A stretch of 20,086 nt of DNA, taken from the IMG/VR virus record IMGVR_UViG_3300011113_000580, positions 1 to 20,086 of that record, one strand, 5' to 3'. How positions within the stretch are numbered: the first letter of the stretch is position 1; every line of letters starts with the position of its first letter. This DNA comes from a virus. Positions 8,132 through 16,889 of this stretch are shown piece after piece. A model generated the notes under the pieces. It was not told where the DNA came from. It did not search any database and saw only the letters and a program-made list of their open reading frames with translations. Position numbers and translations under genes: made by a program.

Positions 8132-8449
8132 ATGAGTGAAACTATAATTCATTTTTGGGAAAATATAGCCACAACAAGTATTGGTATAATTGTAACAATG
8201 GTTGGATTTTGGGTTGCTATTGGCCGAAATATGGCTACTAAAAGTGAGGTTGCTCATATGATAGAAACTCAAAGTCCGTATAATCAAGATCGTCAATTTA
8301 TTATGGAAAGATTAGCTAGTAATAAAGAAACCCAAGCAGCCTTTGCAAATGCTCTACAACGTAATACTGAAGTAATGACAGAACTAAAGATACAAATAGC
8401 CACTTTGGGCAAAACTTTGGAGGCTCTTGAAGAGCGTATTGAAAGATAA
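8132..8449 (+). CDS. Membrane-anchored coiled-coil protein
   Basis: This 105-residue protein starts after an AGGAG site 8 bases upstream. It has an N-terminal transmembrane helix (residues ~13-30, ATTSIGIIVTMVGFWVAI). A polar stretch leads into a long helix with heptad-like spacing from ~55 to the end, including MTELKIQIATLGKTLEALEE. The layout is that of a single-pass inner-membrane protein with a coiled-coil domain. In phages such proteins serve as i-spanin-like, holin-associated or infection-related membrane factors, and the sequence does not distinguish these. It has no lipobox and no overlapping partner gene of the o-spanin type, which weakens a spanin call. It stands between the terminator and the tail-fibre genes. 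Confidence 0.75.
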   Translation: MSETIIHFWENIATTSIGIIVTMVGFWVAIGRNMATKSEVAHMIETQSPYNQDRQFIMERLASNKETQAAFANALQRNTEVMTELKIQIATLGKTLEALEERIER

Positions 8450-10504: not shown

Positions 10505-10867
10505 ATGATAAAACCCGGATATAGAACTAGTGAATTTTGGTTCACGATGGTTAGTTTTATTTTTAGTGGATTATTTTTAGCTGGTATTATAACAGATAAC
10601 GCAGATAAGGAGGATCTAATTAGAGATGTAAGTCATGGTGTTGAATCGTGCATCCTAATAGGAGGTCAATTGTTTATACTGTACAAATACATAAAGGGTA
10701 GATCAAATATTAAACAATCTTGGTGGAATAGTCAATCAGTACCAATTTCTAAAGAGGTAGAGGCAAATGAATCTAACAAGCAAAGAACTAATAAAAACAG
10801 AAGTAGAAAAACTAATAGCAACAACAAAAGTAAAAGTACAAGAAGTAAAAAGAATAGCAGTAGATGA
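10505..10867 (+). CDS. Holin-like two-helix membrane protein with long basic tail
   Basis: This 120-residue protein has two hydrophobic helices, residues ~11-29 (FWFTMVSFIFSGLFLAGII) and ~47-63 (VESCILIGGQLFILYKY). They are joined by a short acidic loop, DNADKEDLIRDVSH. This size and layout, with a short N-terminus MIKPGYRTSE and charged C-terminus, fit class II-type phage holins and holin-like proteins. From about residue 82 the tail is Lys/Arg/Asn/Ser-rich and disordered (NKSKSTRSKKNSSR at the end). Residues 88-120 are encoded in the 101 bases that also encode the N-terminus of the next gene in another frame. Lysis pore formation is the favoured role, but holins cannot be recognised from sequence alone with certainty. 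Confidence 0.72.
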   Translation: MIKPGYRTSEFWFTMVSFIFSGLFLAGIITDNADKEDLIRDVSHGVESCILIGGQLFILYKYIKGRSNIKQSWWNSQSVPISKEVEANESNKQRTNKNRSRKTNSNNKSKSTRSKKNSSR

Positions 10868-11153
10868 AGCATGGAAAATTTTACAGTTAGCAACAGCAAC
10901 AATTATTCAAATTATTGAATCTATTGGTAATGATTTGGCTGGTCCAGATAAAAAAGCATTAGCAATGGAACTTCTTAATAAATTCTATGATAGTGTGTTT
11001 ACCGTTGTTGATATTCCAGTTGTGCCAAACTTTTTGGAGCCTATGATACATAAGTATGTGAAAGCTTTTCTTATGGTATTGCTAAGTGCCACAATTGATG
11101 CTCTTGTCACAACTTTTAGAAATGCTGGAGTTTTTATTAAGAAAGTAGGTTAA
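10767..11153 (+). CDS. Amphipathic helical protein overlapping the holin candidate
   Basis: This 128-residue protein starts at ATG 10767 behind a good GAGG-type ribosome site (AGAGGTAGAGG, 10753-10763), which supports the start despite a 101-base out-of-frame overlap with the holin-like gene. Residues 1-55 form a long charged/amphipathic helix (ELIKTEVEKLIATTKVKVQE, then AWKILQLATATIIQIIESIG). Residues ~75-115 are more hydrophobic (VFTVVDIPVVPNFLEPMI and FLMVLLSATIDALVTTF), possibly membrane-associated. No known domain recognised. Its position between a holin candidate and other membrane proteins suggests it is part of the same membrane module. Confidence 0.72.
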   Translation: MNLTSKELIKTEVEKLIATTKVKVQEVKRIAVDEAWKILQLATATIIQIIESIGNDLAGPDKKALAMELLNKFYDSVFTVVDIPVVPNFLEPMIHKYVKAFLMVLLSATIDALVTTFRNAGVFIKKVG

Positions 11154-11154
11154 T

Positions 11155-11535
11155 ATGAATTTTACTCAAAGTTTTGAAGAATTTAGTAGAAACGTGAGCA
11201 CAATGGATTTGGCTCTGTATGCTGGTGTTGGAATTATTGTCTGGGTTTTATTTAAGGAAAGACTAAGCCCTATACAAAAACTTATACTATCTCTAGTAGA
11301 CCAAGGTAAAAATTTATTATCAACAAATAAATCTAAATCTTCTACTACTGATGTTGTTATGAATAAAACATCTGTTACTACACATGGTGAGGATGTCTTT
11401 TATCAATTAATTACATCCTGGAAACAAACTAGAGATCTTGCTGTGAAAAGCAATTGTGAGGAAGCCGTAAGGGTTGCAGATGAAATGTTTCCATTTCTAA
11501 GTCCAAGCGTTTGTAATAAGGATGAAAATCTATGA
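11155..11535 (+). CDS. Single-pass membrane protein with cytoplasmic helical domain
   Basis: This 126-residue protein starts 1 base after the previous stop. A transmembrane helix at ~18-34 (DLALYAGVGIIVWVLF) is followed by basic KERLSPIQK, favouring a cytoplasmic C-terminal domain. The C-terminal part (GEDVFYQLITSWKQTRDLAV then EEAVRVADEMFPFLSP) is helical and contains two cysteines (SNCEEA, SVC). It ends in an ATGA overlap with the next gene. Not recognised as a known family; it belongs to the membrane cluster 10505-14093. Confidence 0.75.
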   Translation: MNFTQSFEEFSRNVSTMDLALYAGVGIIVWVLFKERLSPIQKLILSLVDQGKNLLSTNKSKSSTTDVVMNKTSVTTHGEDVFYQLITSWKQTRDLAVKSNCEEAVRVADEMFPFLSPSVCNKDENL

Positions 11536-12020
11536 ATCAAAAAATTGTGCTTGTTATTGCTGGTCTTTTGGTGTTTATTGGTTTAACTAAACCAGATTTA
11601 TCAAAATTTATCAATCGTAATAACAATCCTGTTGTTGTAGACGAAATAATAGTTGTAACACCACCAGCAGATATAAAACTTAGAGAAGTTTGTCAACCAG
11701 TTATTGAAACTCTAAAGGGTAATCCAAGAGATGCTCGTAGACTTTCAAATACGTTTTTGGATATTGCCAGACTAATCGAATTAGACGGAGAAGAAATGGT
11801 CATTAAAAATACAGAAGAAATTAAACAAGCAAATAGTTTGGTTGGCCCAATGTTGCGTCTTGATATAAAAGGTAAGTATCCTTCATTATCTAAGGATTGT
11901 CAAGCAGTAGTTGTTAGTCAAATAGGAGATGATAACGTAACTCTAACAAAAGAATTACGAAGTTCTGCTGTTGAAGCGTTTAGGGGTCTTGGGTGGGCTT
12001 GTTATGAGGGGAGCAAATAA
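11532..12020 (+). CDS. Signal-anchor membrane protein upstream of the papain-like peptidase
   Basis: This 162-residue protein starts by an ATGA overlap. Residues ~4-18 (KIVLVIAGLLVFIGL) form a signal anchor. The linker with Pro/Asn/Val (NNNPVVVDEIIVVTPPAD) and a helical domain of ~110 residues likely lie outside the cytoplasm. That domain holds LREVCQPVIETLKGN, DARRLSNTFLDIARLIELDG and FRGLGWACYEG. Two to three cysteines (C55, C124-like and C157) could form disulphides. No recognised family. It ends in a one-base TAATG overlap with the papain-like peptidase gene, so the two are translationally coupled and may act together, for example as inhibitor, anchor or substrate. Confidence 0.75.
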   Translation: MNQKIVLVIAGLLVFIGLTKPDLSKFINRNNNPVVVDEIIVVTPPADIKLREVCQPVIETLKGNPRDARRLSNTFLDIARLIELDGEEMVIKNTEEIKQANSLVGPMLRLDIKGKYPSLSKDCQAVVVSQIGDDNVTLTKELRSSAVEAFRGLGWACYEGSK

Positions 12021-12946
12021 TGCCTCGTTTTTCACCAAAAGAATTATTTGAAAATTATAAAGAAGGTTTTCAAGGATGTCTTTGGGAACAACATATCTTT
12101 GATAGGCTTTTAGAAGAATCTAAATACGCATATTTTGGAGATGGGGCTAAAAGAATCCAAGGTAGCGGAAAAGGAAAACTATCAACACCATATAAGAGTG
12201 TGCTTAAGTTTGACAAAAGCTCTTACAATGAAAGACAAACCACAGGAGATTGTGTTAGTCATGCAACACGAAATGCTGTAGACGTTACTCGTGCTGTAGA
12301 AATTGATATAGAGGGAGATAAGGAGAGTTGGTTAGCAAGAGGTGCTACAGAAGCGATTTATGGTGCTAGGGGATGGGCTGGCCAAGGAATGAGTTGTTCA
12401 AGAGCAGCCGAGTTTGTTAGTAAAATAGGCGGGGTATTAGTTAGACAAAATTATAAAGGTGTTATAGATCTATCAAAATATAACGGTAGTCTTGGTGCTG
12501 GTTGGGGAGGCAGAGGTCTTCCAGATAAAGTAATCGACCTAGCCAATGACCACCAAATCAAAACAGTAAGTCTAGTTAGAACTATAGACGAAGCAAGAGA
12601 CGCTTTAGCCAATGGTTATGGTTTAGCAGTCTGCTCTAACTATGGATTTAGTAGTAAAAGAGATAGTAAGGGTTTTGCAAAAACTAGTGGCAGTTGGGCA
12701 CACGCTATGGCCTGGATAGCATGTGACGATACTGGAAAAGAGCCGTCGTTTTTAGTGCAGAATAGTTGGGGCAAATGGAATGATGGTGGTCATCCAGAAT
12801 GGGGTCCAATTCCAGATGGTTCGTTTTTAATTAATGCAGAAACCGCAGAAGGAATGTTATCTCAAAGCGGAGCATATGCTTTTAGTCAGTTTGACGGTTT
12901 TCCGGTGCAAAAACTTCCTTCATACGGATTTGAAGATTATCTATAA
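12020..12946 (+). CDS. Papain-like (C1) cysteine peptidase
   Basis: This 308-residue protein has the catalytic architecture of the papain family. Q73 with C78 sits in RQTTGDCVSHATRNAV (oxyanion glutamine five residues before the nucleophile). H228 is in GSWAHAMAWIA. N248 is in FLVQNSWGKWNDGG, matching the N-S-W-G papain motif. No signal peptide or classical inhibitory propeptide is seen; the first ~50 residues (ELFENYKEGFQGCLWEQHIF) are an acidic helical lead. Length suits a mature-size C1 enzyme with an extra N-terminal segment. I recall related proteins in uncharacterised phages. It lies in the middle of membrane and secreted proteins. A role in cleaving host envelope peptides, virion entry or host proteins is possible. 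It is coupled to the previous gene by TAATG. Confidence 0.85.
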   Translation: MPRFSPKELFENYKEGFQGCLWEQHIFDRLLEESKYAYFGDGAKRIQGSGKGKLSTPYKSVLKFDKSSYNERQTTGDCVSHATRNAVDVTRAVEIDIEGDKESWLARGATEAIYGARGWAGQGMSCSRAAEFVSKIGGVLVRQNYKGVIDLSKYNGSLGAGWGGRGLPDKVIDLANDHQIKTVSLVRTIDEARDALANGYGLAVCSNYGFSSKRDSKGFAKTSGSWAHAMAWIACDDTGKEPSFLVQNSWGKWNDGGHPEWGPIPDGSFLINAETAEGMLSQSGAYAFSQFDGFPVQKLPSYGFEDYL

Positions 12947-12970
12947 AATATCGGTGTATTTATATTAATA

Positions 12971-12977
12971 AGAGAGG
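12971..12977 (+). promoter_or_regulatory. Shine-Dalgarno AGAGAGG for the microprotein at 12986
   Basis: AGAGAGG lies 8 bases before ATG 12986 in a 39-base gap after the peptidase stop. It supports translation of the 55-residue frame that follows. The AT-rich sequence before it (TATTTATATTAATA) may hold a promoter, but no pair of elements is secure. Confidence 0.65.
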
Positions 12978-12985
12978 TTATTAAT

Positions 12986-13153
12986 ATGAGATTACTTGAT
13001 AAAATTGCTCTTAATAGATTAATTAGTTTAATACTAGGTTTTATACTAACTATAGTAAAACTTTGTTTACCAGAAAGCGGTGATCAAAACACTATAGATA
13101 AACCAAAAGAAAAAAAGCTTTTTCCAACCATTAGACGAAAAAAGAAACAGTAA
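12986..13153 (+). CDS. Short membrane protein, 55 residues
   Basis: A 55-codon frame begins at ATG 12986 behind a good ribosome site. It encodes MRLLDKIALNRLISLILG at the N-terminus. A hydrophobic helix (residues ~12-28, LISLILGFILTIVKLCL) follows, then an acidic turn and a strongly basic tail (KEKKLFPTIRRKKKQ). The basic tail suggests it stays cytoplasmic. It ends one base before the next start, which supports the gene being real. No family recognised. It resembles small phage membrane proteins of lysis or superinfection-exclusion type, without proof. Confidence 0.72.
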   Translation: MRLLDKIALNRLISLILGFILTIVKLCLPESGDQNTIDKPKEKKLFPTIRRKKKQ

Positions 13154-13154
13154 A

Positions 13155-13469
13155 ATGATTAAATTTACTAGTTGTGTTCTTGTGTGTTCATTAATATTAT
13201 TTTCTTCATATGGTTACAACGGTTCCACAACTGCTGTGGTAACTGTTGTTGGTGGAGTTATTAAAGCTAAACACTCAGAAAGTATTAAAAAATATAAAAG
13301 AAAAGATTGTCCTGTTTGTAAAGGTAAGGGCTGGTATATTAGTGGTGATGATATTCAAAAAGTACCCTGTGGATATTGCGAACCAGAAGAAAAACAAGAA
13401 TCTGAAATAACTCATCCGCCAATAATTATTAAAGGTGGTAATTGCAAAACTAAGGTAATGAAAAAATGA
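13155..13469 (+). CDS. Exported protein with CxxCxGxG zinc-finger-like motif
   Basis: This 104-residue protein has an N-terminal hydrophobic stretch (FTSCVLVCSLILFSSYGY) consistent with a signal peptide, with cleavage likely near residues 19-22. There is no clear lipobox. A second hydrophobic segment TTAVVTVVGGVI (25-36) could be a membrane segment. The central part holds C52-PVC55-KGKG and C72-GYC75, which is one repeat of the DnaJ-type CxxCxGxG zinc-binding motif with a paired CxxC. The tail is Pro/Lys-rich. A zinc-binding role is inferred from cysteine spacing. Being exported is unusual for this motif. It ends with a 4-base overlap to the next gene. Confidence 0.75.
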   Translation: MIKFTSCVLVCSLILFSSYGYNGSTTAVVTVVGGVIKAKHSESIKKYKRKDCPVCKGKGWYISGDDIQKVPCGYCEPEEKQESEITHPPIIIKGGNCKTKVMKK

Positions 13470-13855
13470 ATAACGAAGATTTAAAAGTTATTGCAGAAAA
13501 AATTATCGCTAAGGTTCCTAATAAAGAACCAGAAAAATTTGGTAGTATTATTATGATACTTATGGTTATAAGTATTATTTTAACATTAATTAGAGTTATT
13601 CAGGAGTGCAATAAAAAGAAAATATCCATCTTCAATAGAAAACAAAAATACGAATATTATGGGCAGCAAGTTAAAGATATTTCTATTAGAAGGTCGTGGT
13701 TTACAAAAATGATTGTAAAGAAATCCATTCGTAAAGAATTAGATAAAGAAGATTATAAATTATATGGCAATGACTTAGCAAACGCTATTTTAGACACAGG
13801 AGAAAATCTCAAGGAGGATGAAATTATTACTTTAGTGGAGGCAGCAAATGTTTAG
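13466..13855 (+). CDS. Single-pass membrane protein with cytoplasmic basic domain
   Basis: This 129-residue protein is coupled by ATGA. Residues ~27-44 form a transmembrane helix (SIIMILMVISIILTLIRV). The preceding ~25 residues (DLKVIAEKIIAKVPNK) are polar. The C-terminal part is basic near the membrane (NKKKISIFNRKQK), followed by a helical domain (SIRRSWFTKMIVKKSIRKEL, then acidic LDKEDYKL). Basic residues directly after the helix favour a cytoplasmic C-terminus. No known domain. It overlaps the next gene by 8 bases and belongs to the same membrane cluster. Confidence 0.72.
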   Translation: MNNEDLKVIAEKIIAKVPNKEPEKFGSIIMILMVISIILTLIRVIQECNKKKISIFNRKQKYEYYGQQVKDISIRRSWFTKMIVKKSIRKELDKEDYKLYGNDLANAILDTGENLKEDEIITLVEAANV

Positions 13856-14093
13856 TTTATTAGTGTGGTGTGTATATGGAATTTTTGTTGGTAGTATAGC
13901 AAAAACAATAGTTCCAGGGGATGAAAATTTCGGCTTTGTAAAAACAATAGTATTAGGGGTTGCTGGATCATACGCCGGAGGTATAATAACATATCTGCTG
14001 GGAATGAGTCCGCTACAAGCATCTGGATTATTCATGGGTGTTGTAGGAGCAGTTGTGGCATTGGTCCTATACAACAAATTATCAACAAAATAA
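13848..14093 (+). CDS. GlsB/YeaQ/YmgE-like (transglycosylase-associated) membrane protein
   Basis: This 81-residue protein has three hydrophobic segments, ~2-18, ~29-50 and ~56-77. They carry the Gly-rich pattern of the family: YGIFVGSIAKTIVPGD, then VLGVAGSYAGGIITYLLG and FMGVVGAVVALVLYN. The I-x-G-x-I-A-K-x-x-x-P-G-D signature and the Gly-x-x-G-G in helix 2 are as expected. Length matches the ~80-residue bacterial members. The biological role of the family is poorly known (stress-linked membrane proteins). Proteins of this shape have been compared with holins because of size. The ribosome site GTGGAGG (13835-13841) supports the start, and the deaminase gene follows 1 base after the stop. 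Confidence 0.8.
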   Translation: MFSLLVWCVYGIFVGSIAKTIVPGDENFGFVKTIVLGVAGSYAGGIITYLLGMSPLQASGLFMGVVGAVVALVLYNKLSTK

Positions 14094-14696: not shown

Positions 14697-16889
14697 ATGT
14701 CTGCTCTTCAAGAATTACAAAATTATACATTTGTCAGTAAATATGCTCGTTGGCTAGAGGATAAGAACCGTCGTGAAACGTGGAAAGAGGCGGTTGAACG
14801 AGTAAAAAATATGATGCATACCAAGTATAGTGAATTTGGTATAGCAGATGATATTGATTGGGCTTATGATGTAATGTATAAAAAGCGTGTTCTTGGTAGC
14901 CAAAGAGCGTTACAGTTTGGTGGCGATCCTATTCTAAAACGACATGCTAAAATTTATAATTGTACTGCAAGTTATTGTGATAGATTAAGATTTTTTCAAG
15001 AATGTTTCTGGTTATTACTCTGTGGCAGTGGGACCGGATTTAGTGTGCAAAAACACCACGTTGCTAAACTACCATCATTAGAACACGAAGTAGAAGAAGG
15101 CAAAGGACGAGTACATTTAGTTGAAGATAGTATTGAAGGATGGGCTAATAGTCTTGGTATTCTATTAAGTAGTTATTTTAGCAAACCGGTTGAAGAATTT
15201 AAAGACTGGAAAAATACTCATGTTATTTTTGACTTTTCACAAATTCGTCCAAAAGGATCTTCGTTAGCCAGCGGTGTCGGCAAGGCTCCCGGATATGAAC
15301 CATTAGCAAATGGATTAGAAAAAATAAGAGCACTTTTAGATCGCTGCTTAACTAATGGCCAAAAAAAATTGCGTCCAATTGACGCTTATGATATTGTTAT
15401 GCACAGTAGTGATGCTGTGTTAAGCGGTGGTGTTAGACGTAGCGCATCATTGGCATTATTTAGTCCCAATGATGAAGAAATGGCCAAAGCCAAAACTGGC
15501 AATTGGTATATTGATAATCCACAACGAGCACGCAGCAATAATTCGGCACTCTTATTAAAGAGTGAAACAGAATTTCATGAATTTAAATCTTTGATGGAGA
15601 GTGTTAAAGAATTTGGTGAGCCAGGATTTATTTGGAGTGAATCAACAGAGATGATCTTTAATCCTTGTGTTGAAATTGGTATGTGGCCTGTTGATGAAGA
15701 AAGCGGCAAGAGTGGATGGCAAGGTTGCAATTTATCCACTATTAATTGCTCTAGCGTAACAGATGAGGAAGATTTTTATGAGAGATGCAGAGCAGCAGCT
15801 ATTATTGGAACTCTACAAGCTGGTTTCACTAAACTAGAATATCTTGGTGAAATTAGTCAAAAGATTTTTGAAAGAGAAGCATTGTTGGGAGTATCATTAA
15901 CTGGTACTATGGAAAAACATGAATTAGTATTGACCGAAAAGGTACTAACTAAGGGCGCTAAGATTGCTGTTGAAACAAATAAAGAACTATCAAAAAAGAT
16001 CAAAATTAATCAAGCAGCAAGAGTAACGTGTTTAAAGCCAGAAGGAACTAGCAGTAGTATGCTTGGAACCAGTTCTGGTATTCATCCACATCATGCCAAA
16101 CGCTATATACGCCATGTACAGGCAAATGTTTTAGAAGCACCATACCAGCACTTTAAGAAATTAAACCCACAAGCCTGCGAGAAGTCTTGCTGGTCAGCAA
16201 ACAATACTGATGAGGTTGTAAAGTTTCCAATTGAAGTGCCAGACGGAGCCAAATTAAAGAACCAACTTCCAGCAGTCGATATGCTTAAAGTTGTCAAAGA
16301 AACTCAAAAGAATTGGGTACATTCTGGAAAAAATAGATCCTTGTGTACCCAAGACTATTTGAGCCACAATGTTAGCAACACAGTTACTGTAAAACCAGAT
16401 GAATGGGATGATGTTACCAAATTTATTTATGATAATCGTAAATATTTTGCTGGTATTAGTCTTATTCCCCAAAGTGGAGACAAAGATTATACTCAAGCAC
16501 CATTCACAACTGTTTATACAAGCAGAGAAATTGTTAAAGAATATGGTGATGCAGCATTATGGTGTTCTGGTTTGATCGAATTAGGCTTAAATGCTTTTAA
16601 TAATAATTTGTGGGCCGCTTGTGATTATGTTAGTATGAATCAAGCAAAAGAGAATGATAGTCAGGATAAGTTATTATTTGTGACTAAAATGAAAAATTTT
16701 GCTGGTAAATATTTCAATAGTGACCTTAAACGTCTAACATATTGCATGAAAGATGTTTATAATTGGAAGATCTATTGTGATCTATTTAATAGTTTCAAGA
16801 AGGTTGATTATACGCAACTATCAGAGACTGAGGACAATACAGTAGGAATTGAAGAAATTAGTTGCGCCGGTGGTGCTTGTCTAATTTAA
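14697..16889 (+). CDS. nrdJ: Adenosylcobalamin-dependent (class II) ribonucleoside-triphosphate reductase
   Basis: This 730-residue enzyme reduces ribonucleoside triphosphates to deoxyribonucleotides using a radical generated from adenosylcobalamin. It has the monomeric RTPR layout (about 740 residues in lactobacilli). Visible features: RALQFGGDPILKRH; a Cys at 89 in IYNCTA, fit for one of the substrate-reducing pair; LLLCGSGTGFSVQ; N322-P-C324-V-E326 in FNPCVEIG, matching the catalytic Asn-Cys-Glu set; C344 in GWQGCNLSTIN, partner Cys; CLKPEGTSSS at 445; HPHHAKRYIRHVQ; and the C-terminal redox pair C723-AGGA-C728 followed by LI. Between E326 and C344 there is a small insertion relative to the Lactobacillus enzyme. 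The start is set by AGGAG. No thioredoxin-like partner is in the window. Confidence 0.95.
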   Translation: MSALQELQNYTFVSKYARWLEDKNRRETWKEAVERVKNMMHTKYSEFGIADDIDWAYDVMYKKRVLGSQRALQFGGDPILKRHAKIYNCTASYCDRLRFFQECFWLLLCGSGTGFSVQKHHVAKLPSLEHEVEEGKGRVHLVEDSIEGWANSLGILLSSYFSKPVEEFKDWKNTHVIFDFSQIRPKGSSLASGVGKAPGYEPLANGLEKIRALLDRCLTNGQKKLRPIDAYDIVMHSSDAVLSGGVRRSASLALFSPNDEEMAKAKTGNWYIDNPQRARSNNSALLLKSETEFHEFKSLMESVKEFGEPGFIWSESTEMIFNPCVEIGMWPVDEESGKSGWQGCNLSTINCSSVTDEEDFYERCRAAAIIGTLQAGFTKLEYLGEISQKIFEREALLGVSLTGTMEKHELVLTEKVLTKGAKIAVETNKELSKKIKINQAARVTCLKPEGTSSSMLGTSSGIHPHHAKRYIRHVQANVLEAPYQHFKKLNPQACEKSCWSANNTDEVVKFPIEVPDGAKLKNQLPAVDMLKVVKETQKNWVHSGKNRSLCTQDYLSHNVSNTVTVKPDEWDDVTKFIYDNRKYFAGISLIPQSGDKDYTQAPFTTVYTSREIVKEYGDAALWCSGLIELGLNAFNNNLWAACDYVSMNQAKENDSQDKLLFVTKMKNFAGKYFNSDLKRLTYCMKDVYNWKIYCDLFNSFKKVDYTQLSETEDNTVGIEEISCAGGACLI

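Follow-up and report, generated by a model that had tools for sequence, protein, structure and literature searches.

A papain-like peptidase paired with interchangeable holin-type proteins in a probable lysis cassette of uncultured phages

The DNA analyzed here is the IMG/VR virus record IMGVR_UViG_3300011113_000580, 20,086 bases in length (the window), the proteins of which were checked against Pfam and PHROG. Nine consecutive genes, g19 to g27, form a block around g23, which encodes a papain-like cysteine peptidase, and this block is probably a holin-lysin cassette in which the peptidase acts as the lysin. The assignment draws on sequence comparison and a predicted structure, the main reason for it being that unrelated holin-type proteins are exchanged beside a constant enzyme. 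Widespread uncultured freshwater and marine phages appear to lyse their hosts by means of such a papain-type enzyme and interchangeable holins, with no recognizable cell-wall hydrolase. A preliminary description of the window had suggested that the block could serve lysis, the host envelope, or exclusion, with a cysteine peptidase standing in for a lysin or assisting one, and had named a standard endolysin with spanins elsewhere in the genome, together with an unconserved gene order, as evidence to the contrary. Instead, the gene order is kept and eight hydrolase families are absent from 22–28 large relatives, which supports the proposal; the replacement of holin-type proteins beside the peptidase favors its lysis branch and leaves the host-envelope and exclusion branches less favored.

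The pairing was surveyed in 251 peptidase loci, of which 242 were testable, the other nine having less than 1.4 kb upstream of the peptidase. A small two-helix holin-type protein of one of three types lies near the peptidase in 242/242 testable loci. Type A corresponds to g19 and is found in all 88 type-A loci, and types B and C occur in other clades. The type-B protein is about 70 residues long, with a median of 3 nt between its stop codon and the peptidase start, and the type-C protein (about 58 residues) is located downstream of the peptidase. The three types are almost mutually exclusive, two of them co-occurring in one locus only. Profile comparison, performed at low profile depth, gave no support for a shared origin of types A and C or of types A and B. 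In the reciprocal search, 77 of 80 loci for holin A, 76 of 80 for holin B, and 75 of 80 for holin C had the peptidase on the same strand and no more than 3 kb away, for a total of 228/240. The recognized module is reduced to pas21, the holin, and the peptidase in 22 fully flanked type-B loci, where fiber-type genes come next. The type-C protein matches several PHROG holin families (best E value 3.3e-5), and g20 weakly matches the PHROG holin family phrog_6918 (E value 0.0016). Hydropathy analysis gives one strong and one weak helix for g19, with two helices in 48 of the 88 members of its family.

A single-sequence query retrieved 206 relatives of the peptidase from IMG/VR, an alignment query 310, and a broader alignment at least 595 stretches. 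No homologue was found in cultured phages (tblastn, 50,697 phage records) or on plasmids; tblastn searches of the phage records with the CxxC protein, holins B and C, and g22 returned no relatives, and there is no DNA-level match to the window among phage records. The gene-order comparison that had been suggested as a check was made on 75 type-A (close-branch) contigs with 2.6 kb on each flank, and the strict order g19-g20-g21-g22-peptidase-g25-g26-g27 is kept in 68 of these, beyond chance. Within this branch no block member is better conserved than the peptidase, which keeps 75–85% identity, compared with about 50–67% for its neighbors in the block. More distant peptidase relatives (53–56%) sit in contigs binned to SAR202 and Lokiarchaeota metagenome-assembled genomes (MAGs), where the genes of the module are rearranged and some of them fused, although the holin-type, g21, g22, CxxC, and g26 proteins are retained. 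Relatives of the group reach 244 kb. The window also encodes a ribonucleotide reductase of 730 residues (14697-16889), and the group is placed far from cultured phages because the top match of this enzyme in the phage records, from Rhizobium phage RHph_I1_18, is only 46%.

The g23 protein carries the active-site residues of family C1 in papain order, Gln-Cys-His-Asn. H228 and N248 are kept in 177/177 homologues, and Q73 and C78 in all 175 that have letters at these positions, two others being gapped, so that the complete C78/H228/N248 set with Q73 noted earlier in the window is invariant across homologues. The AlphaFold (AF2) model of g23 was built from 85 diverse sequences and reached a predicted local distance difference test score (pLDDT) of 89.2 and a predicted template modeling score (pTM) of 0.91; a shallow alignment had given a pLDDT of 40. 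Comparison of the model with the PDB gave 189 matches at E ≤ 0.001, the best being xylellain (3ois) and cathepsins, and all top 50 matches listed are C1 enzymes with moderate template modeling scores (0.5–0.6), with CHAP and NlpC structures absent from these 50. The predicted fold of g23 is therefore C1/cathepsin-like rather than CHAP/NlpC, which answers the structural comparison proposed in the preliminary description. With xylellain and the cathepsins g23 shares this fold and the Q-C-H-N order, whereas its identity to the best PDB match is only 14–15%. Pfam Peptidase_C1 (PF00112) is matched by 8 of 24 close members (best E value 6.5e-4), the g23 of the window gives no match, and the L204 member scores 17.8 bits compared with a curated cut-off of 20.7; g23 is called papain-like and not a PF00112 member. 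In a viral structure library the model matched C1 proteins from uncultured phages and a single protein with the name peptidoglycan-binding-like; two mycobacteriophage Lysin A proteins were weak matches. The protein has no signal peptide and no transmembrane or hydrophobic segment, and no known peptidoglycan-hydrolase domain was matched in it. The proteolytic activity of g23 is putative.

A tailed phage is expected to carry the gene of a peptidoglycan hydrolase with which it lyses its host. Searches of 22–28 large relatives covered eight Pfam families of such hydrolases, each with a working control, with PF00959, PF13539, PF01510, PF01464, and PF08291 giving no match in 22 relatives of 95–229 kb, and PF01551, PF00877, and PF05257 giving none in 28 records including other branches. 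A CHAP or NlpC/P60 domain had no Pfam match in the block or in the relatives (0/28). Reading by eye of about 100 proteins common to two long relatives (224 and 229 kb) revealed no peptidoglycan hydrolase, and Pfam finds no hydrolase domain in the giant virion-type proteins of the 224-kb relative. A CHAP/NlpC or other standard endolysin as the lysin was rejected for this lack of Pfam matches in the block and the relatives searched. The earlier remark that no classical endolysin is visible thus extends to large relatives, and a classical endolysin is probably absent from the group, which is probable and not proven because the contigs may be incomplete.

The block resembles a canonical holin-endolysin cassette in that a two-helix membrane protein of holin topology adjoins the gene of a soluble, signal-less enzyme, in that the holin types swap while the enzyme is constant, and in its late-gene position near fiber genes. 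It differs in that the enzyme is papain/C1-like and not a recognized peptidoglycan hydrolase, in that no spanin pair is identified, and in containing several extra membrane or exported genes. No spanin profile match was obtained; exported or lipobox CxxC proteins and the signal-anchored g22 are present. Cysteine-protease lysins already have precedents (PMC3314691, PMC4982276). Papain-family N5 (C39-like) domains occur in mycobacteriophage LysA (PMC3314691), where a papain-superfamily cysteine peptidase serves phage lysis, as is proposed for g23, but N5 usually belongs to a larger, multidomain lysin that also has an amidase or glycosidase and a wall-binding region, whereas g23 is single-domain with no recognized partner enzyme. 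Gordonia phage BetterKatz encodes a cysteine protease-like endolysin gene (gp29), a glycoside hydrolase (gp30), and a holin (gp31) (PMC4982276), and so also has a cysteine protease-like gene beside a holin, in a lysis cassette that follows the tail genes; in contrast, no glycoside hydrolase partner was found at the block and g23 has no homologue in phage records.

In the proposed cassette, the small two-helix protein (g19, or the unrelated types in other clades) would act as the holin, and the signal-less peptidase would be made in the cytoplasm and cross through the holin lesion late in infection. It would then cut some layer of the host envelope that contains peptides, substituting for a peptidoglycan hydrolase, and its target may be either peptidoglycan peptides or a protein layer. 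The g21, g22, and CxxC proteins would probably assist at the outer side of the membrane. If this is correct, the peptidase represents a new lysin class, one that would account for genomes where endolysin searches fail, and a large uncultured group of at least 595 IMG/VR stretches seems to put a papain-like peptidase in the place of the hydrolase.

DUF1501 genes were found in 24 of 45 relatives, with all three holin types and E values down to about 1e-130 (G028:C1:3368-4552 (L523 84-2703), G017:C1:38009-39136, and 22 other relatives), and one phage-borne DUF1501 gene adjoins a PSD1/PSCyt2 gene. The DUF1501 genes are possibly host-derived metabolic genes. PSD and PSCyt domains, initially described as specific to planctomycetes, were subsequently reported in Verrucomicrobia as well (PMC5615132). 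DUF1501 by itself is not exclusive, because Caulobacter and Deinobacterium controls also match. Together the phage-borne DUF1501 and PSD1/PSCyt2 genes hint at hosts among the Planctomycetes or Verrucomicrobia, and this stays a hint because one close relative is located in a Flavobacteriales MAG contig. Sigma-70-like factors argue against the archaeal host that the Lokiarchaeota bins would imply, and a SAR202 host was neither favored nor disfavored when tetranucleotides were compared with those of SAR202 contigs. L123, L124, and L125, which lie in SAR202/Lokiarchaeota MAG bins, were probably binned wrongly, so that host calls based on MAGs should be treated with care. In an older literature planctomycete walls appear as protein sacculi that lack peptidoglycan and contain disulfide bonds (PMC2754498), and later papers report peptidoglycan in planctomycetes (PMC4432640). 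The walls of Planctomycetes/Verrucomicrobia-type bacteria are thus a matter of long debate, and a lysin of the proposed kind, if confirmed, would offer a handle on how such cells are lysed. One possible target, in view of the exported CxxC and thioredoxin partners, is a disulfide-linked protein layer of the wall. A specifically proteolytic lysis, in which the peptidase, aided by disulfide-reducing CxxC or thioredoxin-fused proteins, would dismantle such a layer in hosts of this type and the phages would need no peptidoglycan hydrolase, is not very probable.

Several points weigh against a holin-lysin cassette. C1 peptidases normally cut proteins rather than peptidoglycan, and small two-helix proteins are readily over-called as holins. 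Neither the type-A nor the type-B protein itself matches a holin profile, and for this reason g19 is a holin candidate on the basis of topology and position. GH19 and GH108 gave no match in the relatives, but their controls were silent, so absence cannot be claimed for these two, and an endolysin of unknown family may be encoded elsewhere in the genome. In three short type-B contigs (L371, L427, and L429) the holin is followed by ribonucleotide reductase with no peptidase, one type-C contig has no peptidase within 6 kb, and the peptidase adjoins tail-fiber genes, as a virion protein might. A further exception is the type-A contig L303, in which the slot of g22 and the peptidase holds a different gene pair, the second gene of which encodes a protein of 296 residues (L303 3775-4665) whose family keeps the Cys-His pattern THECT...GHA.P. 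Judged from the motif alone this protein may be papain-like; as a homologue of the peptidase it was rejected, since hhalign was not significant and there was no Pfam, PDB-sequence, or phage match. Its family is also present in a few other phages (L530-L534), adjoining small membrane proteins.

The position of the peptidase among fiber-type genes in many loci, together with a conservation like that of structural proteins, could also indicate a virion-associated or morphogenetic protease, for head or tail maturation or as entry cargo, with unrelated late genes as its membrane neighbors. This is unlikely, as the window already encodes a nearby ClpP-like candidate for head maturation, supported by a profile (phrog_94, E value 1.6e-21), and a fixed pairing with exchangeable holin-type proteins is unexpected for a maturation protease. 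A role of the block in remodeling or sealing the envelope of the host, for superinfection exclusion or takeover and with the peptidase processing host envelope proteins, would fit its many single-pass or exported proteins and, in type A, the stress-type Transgly_assoc protein g27. We regard it as quite unlikely, since some type-B loci drop the accessory proteins yet keep the holin-type protein and the peptidase, and Pfam and PHROG scans of the block proteins found no known exclusion family. Most doubtful is a cytoplasmic host-takeover or protein-recycling enzyme, with another, unrecognized lysin serving the holin, which would agree with the missing signal peptide, the usual protein substrates of C1 peptidases, and the other proteases of these phages (S8-like and exported S1-like open reading frames (ORFs), by eye), but not with a tight and reciprocal peptidase-holin pairing or with the L303 slot, which holds an invariant Cys/His protein and not an unrelated gene.

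Among the other genes of the proposed holin-lysin cassette, g20 is present in 88/88 type-A loci and with type A only, whereas the g21 and g22 families occur with all three holin types (225/251 and 232/251 loci, respectively). In some type-C relatives, such as L124 (7560-8318) and L132, g22 is fused to a CxxC domain, and a CxxC-type protein is fused to thioredoxin in L123. The exported CxxC protein lies close after the peptidase in most loci where it is recognized; in types B and C, proteins with a g25-like motif directly follow the peptidase, with a lipobox in some type-B relatives. Upstream of the block, g14 shows a median identity of 84%, and pas21 and cc17, proteins of similar architecture, accompany types B and C. 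We infer a link of g14 to the cassette, and accessory roles in it for g21, g22, and the CxxC protein.

The coordinates of all features are listed in Table 1. The nine ORFs of the membrane, exported, or membrane-associated run outlined in the preliminary description were recovered at the same positions (10505-14093), all on the + strand and mostly abutting or overlapping. By hydropathy, g20 has a C-terminal hydrophobic stretch, g21, g22, and g24 have N-terminal helices, g25 has a signal-like start, and g26 and g27 have one and three helices. The overlaps are 4 nt for g21/g22, 1 nt for g22/g23, 4 nt for g25/g26, and 8 nt for g26/g27, and the single true gap, of 39 nt, separates g23 from g24. In addition, g19 and g20 share 101 nt out of phase (10767-10867); relatives including L004 and L303 show comparable overlaps, in which the beginning of g20 coincides with the sequence encoding the basic tail of the holin candidate. 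The last gene, earlier read as GlsB-like, belongs to the GlsB/YeaQ/YmgE family, with g27 scoring 28.5 bits against Pfam Transgly_assoc (cut-off 25.3) as the sole protein above a Pfam cut-off among the nine scanned.

Table 1. Positions in the window of the block genes, the putative active-site codons of g23, and g14
Feature	Position	Strand	Basis or remarks
g19, type-A holin candidate, 120 residues	10505..10867	+	two hydrophobic segments (second weak), K/R-rich C-terminal tail
g20, membrane-associated protein, 128 residues	10767..11153	+	type A only; weak PHROG holin match
g21, single-pass protein, 126 residues	11155..11535	+	family with all three holin types
g22, N-terminal signal anchor, domain probably extracytoplasmic, 162 residues	11532..12020	+	hydropathy, family occurrence
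g23, papain-like cysteine peptidase, proposed lysin, 308 residues	12020..12946	+	active-site residues, predicted fold
Q73 codon, putative oxyanion-hole Gln	12236..12238	+	invariant
C78 codon, putative nucleophile	12251..12253	+	invariant
H228 codon, putative catalytic His	12701..12703	+	177/177
N248 codon, putative catalytic Asn, NSWG motif	12761..12763	+	177/177
g24, single-pass basic protein, 55 residues	12986..13153	+	type A only, 68/88 loci
g25, exported protein, zinc-ribbon-like C..CxGxG...C motif, 104 residues	13155..13469	+	80/88 type-A loci
g26, single-pass protein, 129 residues	13466..13855	+	123 loci across types
g27, GlsB/YeaQ-type Transgly_assoc protein, three helices, 81 residues	13848..14093	+	PF04226; type A only
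g14, N-terminal helix and coiled coil, 105 residues, possible associated regulator	8132..8449	+	similar architectures with types B and C

By eye, the long relative G002 and a second long relative share S8-like, exported S1-like, and ClpP-like peptidases and an exported thioredoxin-like protein (G002 190734-191636, 211454-212212, 173664-174359, and 194880-195347). G002 also encodes a protein of 1878 residues with FGE-sulfatase and DUF285 domains (162004-167640) and a tape-measure-type protein of 5267 residues matching PF10145 (79162-94965).

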